Below, one piece after another: positions 21,485 to 50,806 of a stretch of DNA of 64,000 nucleotides; the first letter of the stretch is position 1; the number at the start of each line of letters is the position of its first letter. Under the pieces are notes generated by a model. It did not search any database, was not told where the DNA came from, and worked only from the letters and a program-made list of their open reading frames with translations. The stretch comes from an uncultured Lachnospiraceae bacterium (GTDB lineage: Bacteria; Bacillota; Clostridia; Lachnospirales; Lachnospiraceae), in contig CANRMA010000009.1 in the NCBI GenBank assembly GCA_947631625.1, forward strand, positions 1 to 64,000, in the 5' to 3' direction. The position numbers and the translations under genes are program-made.

Positions 21485-21498
21485 ATAAGGGTTTAATA
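21485..21498. repeat. Left 14-bp direct repeat flanking element A (target duplication)
   Basis: ATAAGGGTTTAATA is repeated without mismatch at 21708-21721, exactly abutting both ends of element A (21499-21707). This is the form expected for a target-site duplication. Confidence 0.8.
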
Positions 21499-21707
21499 TA
21501 GGCGATTGCGAAACTCTCTCTCAACGTATATTGATTGTACATATTTAACAAACACCATTGCAGGCGCTCTGAGCCTACCGGTTCTTAGGCTGCGTATTTT
21601 GCAGCCTTAGTACCGCTGTAAGGCTCAATGCAGCGCAAGCGTGCCTGCAAGGTTTTGTTAAATTTGTACAATCTCGATAACGTATATCATGGTTTTGCAA
21701 TTGCCTA
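21499..21707 (+). mobile_element. Palindromic MITE-like element, copy A
   Basis: A 209-bp non-coding element with termini TAGGCGATTGCG...GCAATTGCCTA. It is one of three near-full copies in the window (also 21873-22078 and, inverted, 37291-37498). The middle is a long imperfect hairpin: GTTTAACAAA-type arms, GCAGGC/GCCTGC, and a tip of TAGGCTGC/GCAGCCTTA around TATTTT. Perfect 14-bp direct repeats flank it. There is no ORF, so it would need a transposase encoded elsewhere. It lies upstream of the GGDEF gene and its GAGA-end points toward that gene. I do not recognise the family name. Confidence 0.85.
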
Positions 21708-21721
21708 ATAAGGGTTTAATA
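21708..21721. repeat. Right 14-bp direct repeat flanking element A
   Basis: Second copy of ATAAGGGTTTAATA. If the element's own terminal TA is counted, the match extends to 16 bases. Confidence 0.8.
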
Positions 21722-21834
21722 TAATGAGGTATAGTGTTTAATATATTATGAAGTATAATATTAATATACATGTTTTCTAAGATGATTAATGTTATTTATA
21801 ATATGCCCACAAAGTATAAAAGTGAATATTTGGC

Positions 21835-21863
21835 TTGTCCGGGCAGATTTGCTTGGATATAAT
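21835..21863 (+). promoter_or_regulatory. Promoter reading into element B and the nuclease-like gene
   Basis: TTGTCC (21835-21840), 17 bases, TATAAT (21858-21863). The predicted start, near 21870, is a few bases before element B (21873), so the element would form almost the whole 5' leader of the gene at 22113. Confidence 0.65.
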
Positions 21864-21872
21864 ATTTTTAAT

Positions 21873-22078
21873 TAGTGATTGCAAAACTTTCTCAACGTAT
21901 ATTGATTGTGCAGATTTAACAAACACCATTGCAGGCGCTCTGAGCCCGCCGGTGCTTAGGCTGCGTATTTTGCAGCCTTAGCACCGTTGCGTGGCTCAAC
22001 GCAGCGAAAGCGGCCTGCAAAGGTTTTGTTAAATCTGCACAATCTCGAAGACGTGCATCAGCGTTTTGCAATTGTCTG
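21873..22078 (+). mobile_element. Palindromic MITE-like element, copy B
   Basis: A 206-bp copy in the same orientation as A, 165 bases away. GATTGTGCAGATTTAACAAA (21904-21923) and its exact complement near 22025-22044 give a 20-bp perfect outer stem, with inner arms of the shared hairpin. Flanks AATATTTTTAAT and GATATTTTTAAA agree at 10 of 12 positions, consistent with a decayed target duplication. It ends 34 bases before the next ATG, placing a large hairpin in that gene's leader. Confidence 0.85.
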
Positions 22079-22112
22079 GATATTTTTAAAACTCAAAGGA
22101 TGATATTGACCG

Positions 22113-22865
22113 ATGGATAAAGAAGCGTTTGAACAGGCAAAATTGAAAGTGCTGCTTGACCGGCATGAGCCGCAGGGCTTCGGAACACTGCAGGAAAAGA
22201 CCGTACATGCCGTGATGAAGCTTTATTATGAACCTGATATCGATTATCATGAGGTGCCGGTGGAAGGATATATAGCGGATATATATAAAAATGGACATAT
22301 AATAGAGATCCAGAACGGGAATTTTAACAGACTCAGGGAAAAACTTAAGACCTTTTTACCATTATATAAAGTTACGGTGGTATTTCCGATTCCGCACAAC
22401 AGATGGCTCATATATATTGATGAAGAAAGCGGAGAGTTATCGAAAAAACGTAAATCTCCTGTGACCGGCAGCGTATACAGCGCATTTCCTGAACTCTATA
22501 AGATTAAAGAATTTTTAGGACATCCCAATCTTTCTTTTTCGTTTCCGTTGGTCGATATGGACGAATATCGTCTGTTGCCCCGAAGCGCCGGTTCTAAAAC
22601 AAAAGGCAGGGGCAAAAAACGCGGGAGCAGATATGACAGGATGCCGCTTGAACTTTATGATGAAATAAATTTTGAGCGGCCGGAAGATTTTGTGCAGGTT
22701 ATACCGATAGAGCTAAACGGGCAGTTTACGGTAAAGGAATTTGCGGCGGCGGCCCATATTCATAGGGATTATGCGCAGATAACGCTGCATATACTGAATC
22801 ATATGGAACTGGTAAAGAGAGCAGGCAAACGGTCCAGAGAGTATCTGTACGAGGTAATAGATTAG
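22113..22865 (+). CDS. Probable PD-(D/E)XK-like protein with C-terminal winged helix, function unknown
   Basis: A 250-aa protein. Residues about 25-120 read HAVMKLYYEPD...HEVPVEGYIADIYKNGHIIEIQNGNFNRLREKL. The Glu, then ADI, then EIQ arrangement looks like the catalytic core of a PD-(D/E)XK nuclease fold (E...D...ExQ), followed by VTVVFPIPHNRWLIYID. A basic linker (KTKGRGKKRGSRYD) leads to a C-terminal helix-turn-helix-like domain (GQFTVKEFAAAAHIHRDYAQITLHIL). I recall similar clostridial proteins of unknown function, possibly the DUF8091 group. It precedes the topoisomerase pair. Nuclease activity is inference from the motif order. Confidence 0.6.
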   Translation: MDKEAFEQAKLKVLLDRHEPQGFGTLQEKTVHAVMKLYYEPDIDYHEVPVEGYIADIYKNGHIIEIQNGNFNRLREKLKTFLPLYKVTVVFPIPHNRWLIYIDEESGELSKKRKSPVTGSVYSAFPELYKIKEFLGHPNLSFSFPLVDMDEYRLLPRSAGSKTKGRGKKRGSRYDRMPLELYDEINFERPEDFVQVIPIELNGQFTVKEFAAAAHIHRDYAQITLHILNHMELVKRAGKRSREYLYEVID

Positions 22866-37290: not shown

Positions 37291-37498
37291 TAGGCAATTG
37301 CGAAACTTTGATTTATGTCTTTTTGGATTGTACAGATTTAACAAAACCCTTGCAGGCCGCTTTCGCTGCGTTGAGCCTCGCAGCGGTGCTAAGGCTGCAA
37401 AATACGCAGCCTAAGAACCGGCGGGCTCAGAGCGCCTGCAATGGTGTTTGTTAAATCTGCACAATCAATATACGTTGAGAGAGTTTCGCAAATGCCTA
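37291..37498 (-). mobile_element. Palindromic MITE-like element, copy C (inverted)
   Basis: A 208-bp copy in the opposite orientation to A and B, with termini TAGGCAATTGCG and GCAAATGCCTA. Its core is nearly identical to B over the hairpin. Flanks TATATTCATATA and TATATTATTAAA agree at 9 of 12 positions, a weak target duplication in AT-rich DNA. It fills almost the whole gap between recU and hisZ, so the his operon must either be read through it or start in or beside it. Confidence 0.85.
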
Positions 37499-49469: not shown

Positions 49470-50756
49470 ATGTTTGCAGATCGTGCCAGAATATATGTAA
49501 AAAGCGGAAAAGGCGGAGACGGTCACGTCTCTTTCAGAAGGGAAAAATATGTTCCAAACGGCGGCCCCGACGGCGGAGACGGCGGAAACGGCGGAAGCGT
49601 TTATTTTGTCGTGGACGAAGGCTTGAACACTTTGACGGATTTCCGTCATATCCGTAAATATTGCGCAGGAAATGGTGCAGAAGGCGGAAAACGCAACTGC
49701 GCCGGCAAAAACGGCGAGGACATTTTTATAAAAGTTCCGGAGGGTACGGTTATAAAAGAGGCCCAGAGCGGTCAGGTTATAGCCGATATGTCCGGTGACA
49801 ATAAAAAACTACTGTTATTAAAAGGCGGTAGAGGCGGAAGCGGAAACCAACATTACGCCACCAGCAAAATGCAGGCGCCTAAATATGCGCAGCCCGGTCA
49901 GCCGGCTATGGAGCTTGAGCTTATATTGGAACTTAAAGTTATAGCTGATGTTGGGCTTGTGGGCTTTCCCAATGTGGGTAAATCGACTTTTCTTGCAAGA
50001 GTGACCAATGCCACGCCCAAGATAGCCAATTACCATTTTACCACTTTAAATCCCAATCTCGGGGTGGTTGACTTGGATGACGCCGACGGTTTTGTGATCG
50101 CCGACATTCCGGGGCTTATTGAAGGAGCGTCAGAAGGCGTGGGACTTGGACATGAGTTTTTGCGCCATATTGAGCGTACCAAGATAATACTCCATATCGT
50201 TGATGCGGCTTCAACCGAGGGAAGAGATCCTGTTGAGGACATATATGCGATCAATAAAGAACTTGAGGCCTATAATGCAGATATAGCCGCAAGGCCGCAG
50301 ATCATAGCTGCCAATAAGATTGACGTCATATACGGCGAAGACGACCCCATAGCCCGTATAAAGGCCGAATTTGAACCCAAAGGCATACCTGTATATCCAA
50401 TCTCGGCAGTCAGCGGTAAGGGCGTCAGAGAGCTTATTTACGCTCTTAGGAATAAGCTTGATGAATTTGACGGCGAACCTGTGGTCTTTGAACCCGAATA
50501 TGTTTTTAAAGCGCCGGATTACGCTGCCTCTGAACCTTTTACGGTCATATATGATGAAAAAGCGGATGAATATGTGGTGGAAGGTCCCCGCATTGAAAAA
50601 ATGCTTTCCTATACCAACTTAGAGTCAGAGAAAGGCTTTCAGTTCTTCCAGAACTTTTTGAAGGACAACGGGATACTTAAACAGCTTGAGGAACTGGGGA
50701 TAGAAGAGGGCAACACGGTCAGGATGTATGGACTGGCGTTTGATTATTATAAATAG
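49470..50756 (+). CDS. obg: GTPase Obg
   Basis: This 428-aa ribosome-associated GTPase takes part in 50S assembly and stress control. It has the Gly-rich OBG fold (GGDGHVSFRREKYVPNGGPDGG...), G1 GFPNVGKST, G3 DIPGLIEGASEGVGLGHEFL, G4 AANKID, and a C-terminal OCT domain ending YGLAFDYYK. Its stop TAG (50754-50756) is the first three bases of the 53-bp element relic D. The strong rpmA terminator upstream suggests its own promoter or partial read-through. Confidence 0.95.
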   Translation: MFADRARIYVKSGKGGDGHVSFRREKYVPNGGPDGGDGGNGGSVYFVVDEGLNTLTDFRHIRKYCAGNGAEGGKRNCAGKNGEDIFIKVPEGTVIKEAQSGQVIADMSGDNKKLLLLKGGRGGSGNQHYATSKMQAPKYAQPGQPAMELELILELKVIADVGLVGFPNVGKSTFLARVTNATPKIANYHFTTLNPNLGVVDLDDADGFVIADIPGLIEGASEGVGLGHEFLRHIERTKIILHIVDAASTEGRDPVEDIYAINKELEAYNADIAARPQIIAANKIDVIYGEDDPIARIKAEFEPKGIPVYPISAVSGKGVRELIYALRNKLDEFDGEPVVFEPEYVFKAPDYAASEPFTVIYDEKADEYVVEGPRIEKMLSYTNLESEKGFQFFQNFLKDNGILKQLEELGIEEGNTVRMYGLAFDYYK

Positions 50757-50806
50757 GTAATTGCAAAACCATGATATACGTTGAGAGAGAGTTTAGCAAA
50801 TACCTG
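50754..50806 (-). mobile_element. 53-bp internally deleted derivative of the palindromic element, copy D
   Basis: TAGGTAATTGCAAAACCATG joined to ATATACGTTGAGAGAGAG and ending GCAAATACCTG. The two halves match the two termini of copy A (reverse strand); the joint lies at ATATACGTT, a 9-base sequence present near both ends of full copies. Everything between is missing. Flanks GATTATTATAAA and GAAACATATAAA agree at 8 of 12. The obg stop codon is its first three bases. Confidence 0.8.

Follow-up and report, generated by a model that had tools for sequence, protein, structure and literature searches.

A MITE with a structured RNA core, probably mobilised by an IS1182-like transposase, separates a nuclease-like gene's promoter from its ribosome site in a Lachnospiraceae genome

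Results

Organisation of the locus

The window (the whole stretch of DNA analysed here: 64,000 nt of contig CANRMA010000009.1 from an uncultured Lachnospiraceae bacterium) carries on its + strand a nuclease-like gene (22113-22865), preceded by a putative promoter and a hairpin-forming repeat, referred to as element B. The promoter (21835-21863) has the arrangement TTGTCC-17-TATAAT, with the -35 box at 21835-21840 and the -10 box at 21858-21863, and agrees with the consensus at 10 of 12 positions. Element B (~204 bp, + strand, 21874-22077) is bounded by a left terminal inverted repeat (TIR) AGTGATTGCAAAAC (21874-21887, + strand) and a right TIR GTTTTGCAATTGTCT (22063-22077, - strand). It is flanked by direct repeats of ATATTTTTAA at 21862-21871, overlapping the -10 box, and at 22080-22089; this duplication is of 10 bp only and lies 1-2 nt off the element ends. 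The Shine-Dalgarno (SD) region AAGGATGA follows at 22096-22103, and the ATG at 22113 lies 34 nt past position 22078. The original prediction had placed this promoter, hairpin and start codon correctly at every coordinate.

Within element B, an inverted repeat of 20 nt (100% complementary, + strand, 21904-21923 and 22025-22044) forms the basal stem. A conserved RNA core, folding as a three-way junction, occupies 21925-22025 (+ strand; model R1, 103.7 bits) and contains a GC-GAAA-GC mini-hairpin with a GNRA loop at 22004-22011 (+ strand). The predicted RNA of the element folds at -112.8 kcal/mol, whereas shuffled sequences average -64.6 (z -10.3; none of 200 shuffles as good). No promoter-like site was found when the + strand of the element was scanned for promoters. 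Predicted accessibility was 0.59 with the element and 0.60 without it for the SD, and 0.79 and 0.81, respectively, for the AUG.

The BglII site has the form D/ExQ, which is resembled by the invariant residues D56...E65-x-Q67 of the downstream protein. Its AlphaFold2 model (pLDDT 87.7) shows an alpha-beta3-alpha-beta core, BglII-like and of the PD-(D/E)XK type, with a C-terminal winged helix. No family was found for it in Pfam and NCBIfam, and the only PD-(D/E)XK enzyme among the PDB matches listed was BglII, as a weak match (E 0.06). The earlier description of the protein as nuclease-like is borne out by the modelled core and the invariant residues.

Ancestry of the promoter

For the nuclease-like gene, 59 relatives were compared in their upstream regions. 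In 27 of them the best promoter has a -35 box starting with TTGT, nearly always at 17-nt spacing to TATAAT or TATACT, and one relative (L133) carries exactly TTGTCC-17-TATAAT, 18 nt ahead of its start codon. A covariance-model search of the leaders of all 59 gave no match to the hairpin core. Because element-free relatives keep the same promoter architecture, with identical hexamers in L133, the window promoter is most likely ancestral and element B inserted directly downstream of it. The claim that the element makes up nearly the whole 5' leader can accordingly be retained in the form that it very probably constitutes most of it.

A LexA/DinR-like box (AAAC-N4-GTTC) overlaps the -35 box in 23 of the 59 relatives (upstream regions, L091-L149). 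These boxes suggest SOS control of the nuclease-like gene, whose neighbours are topoisomerase IV genes; no clear box of this kind is present in the window copy.

Copies, ends and duplications

Element B is classified from its sequence as a non-autonomous miniature inverted-repeat transposable element (MITE). In the window's genome (a draft of 2.67 Mb, 81% complete) at least 40 close copies were found by search, and at least 55 after merging with flanking loci. The copies are 204-208 bp long, have no coding capacity and are bounded by the terminal inverted repeats AGGTAATTGCGAAAC and GTTTCGCAATTACCT; the TIR consensus gave 168 genome matches versus 11 for the reversed control. Flanking direct repeats scored at least 8 in 21 of 40 copies, versus 6% with shuffled flanks, and an autonomous partner with matching ends is present as a complete insertion sequence (IS) in genus relatives (see below). 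In the window, a second copy, element A (21500-21706, + strand), is flanked by a perfect 15-bp duplication (ATAAGGGTTTAATAT, 21485-21499 and 21708-21722), and a third (37292-37497, - strand) lies 32 nt ahead of a histidyl-tRNA-synthetase-like (hisZ/hisS) gene.

The same ends also enclose other interiors: a 143-bp type, and mini-copies of 51-62 bp such as the 51-bp one at 50755-50805 (+ strand), which has the terminal repeats and no core. The ~143-bp type (L029:1330-1472, L075:878-1020, L076:1008-1149, L078:2844-2986, L183, L184) has a different structured tip (GGGGTGA..GCGGTCGAACCCC) and long paired arms that vary between genomes, which places two unrelated cores in one vehicle. A lone terminal repeat at 453-467 of the window, 29 nt ahead of a GTG start, is probably the end of a degraded copy of this type. 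Clustered copies were also considered as gene cassettes or arrays, a reading that was rejected: the clusters are tandem duplications or duplicated genes.

Partner insertion sequence

The same ends are present in 44 of 60 genomes of the genus, and one end match led to an intact transposase of 485 aa (DUF772, 6e-12; IS1182 model, 7e-19). Complete IS copies in the genus measure 1755-1765 bp, with left end AGGCGTTTGCGAAAC and right end GTTTCGCAATTACCT; they have duplications of 13-14 bp where these are clear and, as the MITE copies do, lie directly upstream of SD sequences. The transposase scores above the cut-off for DUF772 and just below it for DDE_Tnp_1, and reaches 68 bits with the IS1182 model NF033551, for which the cut-off is 270. 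On these profile matches, the partner IS is described as IS1182-like without being assigned to the IS1182 family.

The draft genome to which the window belongs (81% complete) yielded no intact partner, only a C-terminal transposase remnant adjoining a TIR; the transposase that moved the copies of this genome may thus have been lost or be unassembled. Beside the remnant, an ORF (L065:2327-3007) matches both ToxN toxin and Y2 transposase models and is probably a fused or decayed gene. A further candidate partner, an integrase-like ORF adjoining a TIR in G046 (L169), was rejected, as only one TIR was found there.

Position of the copies relative to genes

Of 55 copies, 35 have a start codon with a preceding ribosome binding site at 24-36 nt from their edge, against an expectation of 6.4% derived from the intergenic bases of the window; these distances depend on crude gene calls, and the excess is about tenfold. 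The remaining 20 copies have no called start codon within 24-36 nt. The copies are related to each other, and copy counts are hence not counts of independent events. The distance between SD and element edge is mostly 17-20 nt. A+T content is 81-82% in the 14 nt next to the element and 62% further upstream. Among 40 oriented copies, 18 are sense and 22 antisense to the gene. Genes downstream of copies include argS, gatC, parB, a short-chain dehydrogenase (fabG-like), aspartate/ornithine carbamoyltransferase (pyrB-like), hisZ/hisS-like genes and chorismate mutase-prephenate dehydratase. As such housekeeping genes stand behind copies, their expression must survive insertion.

The conserved RNA core

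The core at the hairpin tip is a three-way junction of ~100 nt with the GNRA mini-hairpin and a long capped arm. In a structure-blind alignment of 14 sequences, compensatory double changes were found in 16 of 30 pairs. Among 81 distinct core sequences, 94.2% of cells pair (74.6% shuffled) and 28 of 30 pairs covary, with a covariation of 0.536 versus 0.172 shuffled and at most 0.098 slid; this alignment was fitted to the covariance model, which makes the structure-blind result the safer of the two. The mini-hairpin loop is GNRA in all 83 family copies (aligned columns), and its N and R positions vary. This pattern argues for the + strand of the core acting as a single strand, either RNA or ssDNA. 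G.T versus A.C mismatches stand at 105:15 on the + strand and at 52:14 in the minus-strand fold; this asymmetry was rejected as proof of RNA and is only suggestive, since the minus-strand fold is also skewed.

The covariance model detected the core in 58 of 60 genomes of the genus and in 111 of 299 Lachnospiraceae genomes; in a class-wide sample of 291 genomes, the seven with a match were all Lachnospiraceae. One copy of the core lies in Anaerosporobacter faecicola, a culturable relative (L148:263-365). Searching the whole window against Rfam gave no matches at the gathering threshold and, at relaxed E-values, only chance miRNA-type or below-threshold matches, leaving the core without an Rfam identity. 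A search of genome contigs for the exact core pattern also gave no match. The motif occurs family-wide and has no Rfam entry. A single genome can contain up to 60 copies or more, and many housekeeping genes of common gut bacteria have it in their leaders.

Many core copies lack these terminal repeats (genus g207), and some lineages have locus-specific paired arms; the MITE mobility route thus does not explain the whole RNA family. Some TIR-less core sites of g207 are common to two species, and part of these lie in gene leaders. As judged from these common sites, part of the core family is old and has perhaps been domesticated. The g207 loci L275-L294 have unrelated, locus-specific core arms, and several of them lie ahead of apparent genes for the biosynthesis of sugar nucleotides or amino acids. 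In genus relatives (L159-L162, L164, L165, L167), a further repeat family shares only the apical CTTAGGCTGCGTATTTTGCAGCCTTAG hairpin, which is preceded there by a GGAAGAATGC..GCATTCTTCC hairpin.

Discussion

Proposed origin of the leader hairpin

Element class, ends, duplications, copy positions, partner IS and RNA covariation were all computed, and the reading that they favour strongly is that of a MITE, mobilised by an IS1182-like transposase, which inserted downstream of the -10 box and ahead of the ribosome site, bringing RNA cargo of its own and having a small effect on the gene. An IS1182-like DDE transposase would recognise the element ends in trans, and insertion, with a duplication of ~10-15 bp, would occur in A+T-rich DNA directly upstream of SD sequences. 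Element B would in this manner have come to lie between a promoter and a gene that were already paired, with part of the -10 region copied in the process, and transcripts from the promoter, given the predicted start, would carry it as their leader. The inner ~100 nt would be the element's own cargo and not a device for the nuclease-like gene. The effect on translation would probably be small, because the SD is left free and housekeeping genes stand behind such copies; RNase III processing of the leader would be the likeliest post-transcriptional consequence. The leader hairpin can then be explained as transposon targeting to SD-proximal DNA.

The original prediction had proposed that the hairpin could act as a leader that damps or times the nuclease-like gene. 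A very stable hairpin does lie between promoter and SD, and transcript-borne MITEs are able to alter expression, as do the Correia elements that are cut by RNase III (PMC10969869). Some effect on expression, for example through such processing, is possible. The same placement is however found at ~35 unrelated genes in both orientations, the element is absent from all leaders of the relatives, and predicted SD accessibility is unchanged; we consider a gene-specific role quite unlikely, and damping of this gene by element B is not favoured by the modelled accessibility. A transcription terminator or attenuator within the leader appears less probable still: a strong GC-rich inner stem is followed by GGTTTTGTT, and the pneumococcal SPRITE repeats are terminator-like (PMC3049150), but no terminator was found in the + strand scan of the element, the T-run is absent in lineages L150 and L155, and housekeeping genes, among them argS and gatC, stand behind copies.

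The alternative that carries most weight, though doubtful, is that the element is primarily a functional Lachnospiraceae RNA family (regulatory or protein-binding), scattered by or domesticated from mobile elements, for which the MITE ends are one vehicle. Strong covariation, the invariable GNRA loop, the wide distribution in genus and family genomes and the TIR-less copies at sites shared by the two g207 species, some of them in leaders, argue for it. The high copy number, the lack of a constant gene partner and the occurrence in both orientations argue against it, this pattern being the signature of mobile or repeat candidates in PMC11109978. Our best guess is that the core is the structured cargo of a selfish element. 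A further proposal, which we regard as rather improbable, makes the core a new structured RNA specific to Lachnospiraceae. It would act in cis or in trans, for instance as a ligand of the transposase or of a host protein or as a buffer for transcripts that receive insertions, and IS1182-like ends would have enclosed two or more unrelated RNA cores in elements that target SD sequences.

Comparison with known systems

The IS1182 family (IS1272, PMC5678879; ISPse1, PMC3281130) resembles the partner IS in size and in its ends of ~15 bp, and the partner matches DUF772/DDE and the IS1182 model. IS1272 however replaces hairpin targets without duplications (PMC5678879) and ISPse1 makes duplications of 4 bp (PMC3281130), whereas the partner IS makes 13-14 bp next to SD sequences.

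Among small repeats, MRSC-65-2 likewise has a covarying structure and dozens of copies per genome and has been interpreted as a selfish element (PMC11109978). It consists of one long stem in which UYCCGG repeats are conserved, unlike the three-way junction with GNRA loop described here; TYCCGG is absent from 21874-22077 by reading, and element B is therefore not assigned to MRSC-65-2. The Correia repeat enclosed elements of Neisseria are also gene-adjacent MITEs present in transcripts as long hairpins (PMC2649163, PMC10969869). Compared by description, they differ in belonging to another host phylum and in that RNase III cleavage has been shown for them (PMC10969869), while it is inferred here.

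The pneumococcal RUP and BOX are, like element B, small high-copy hairpins that bear terminal repeats and duplications, probably owe their mobility to a resident IS and are cotranscribed with genes (PMC3049150). Their partners are IS630-Spn1 or ISSpn2, in contrast to the IS1182-like partner here, and the core here covaries family-wide. Convergent gene pairs have an excess of BOX, RUP and SPRITE between them (PMC3049150); the placement 24-36 nt ahead of a start codon in 35 of 55 copies is opposite to this reported one, as judged from descriptions of RUP and BOX and not from their sequences. RUP/BOX, Correia elements and MRSC-65-2 are thus the nearest known kinds, from which the present element differs by its SD-proximal placement and its family-wide three-way-junction cargo.
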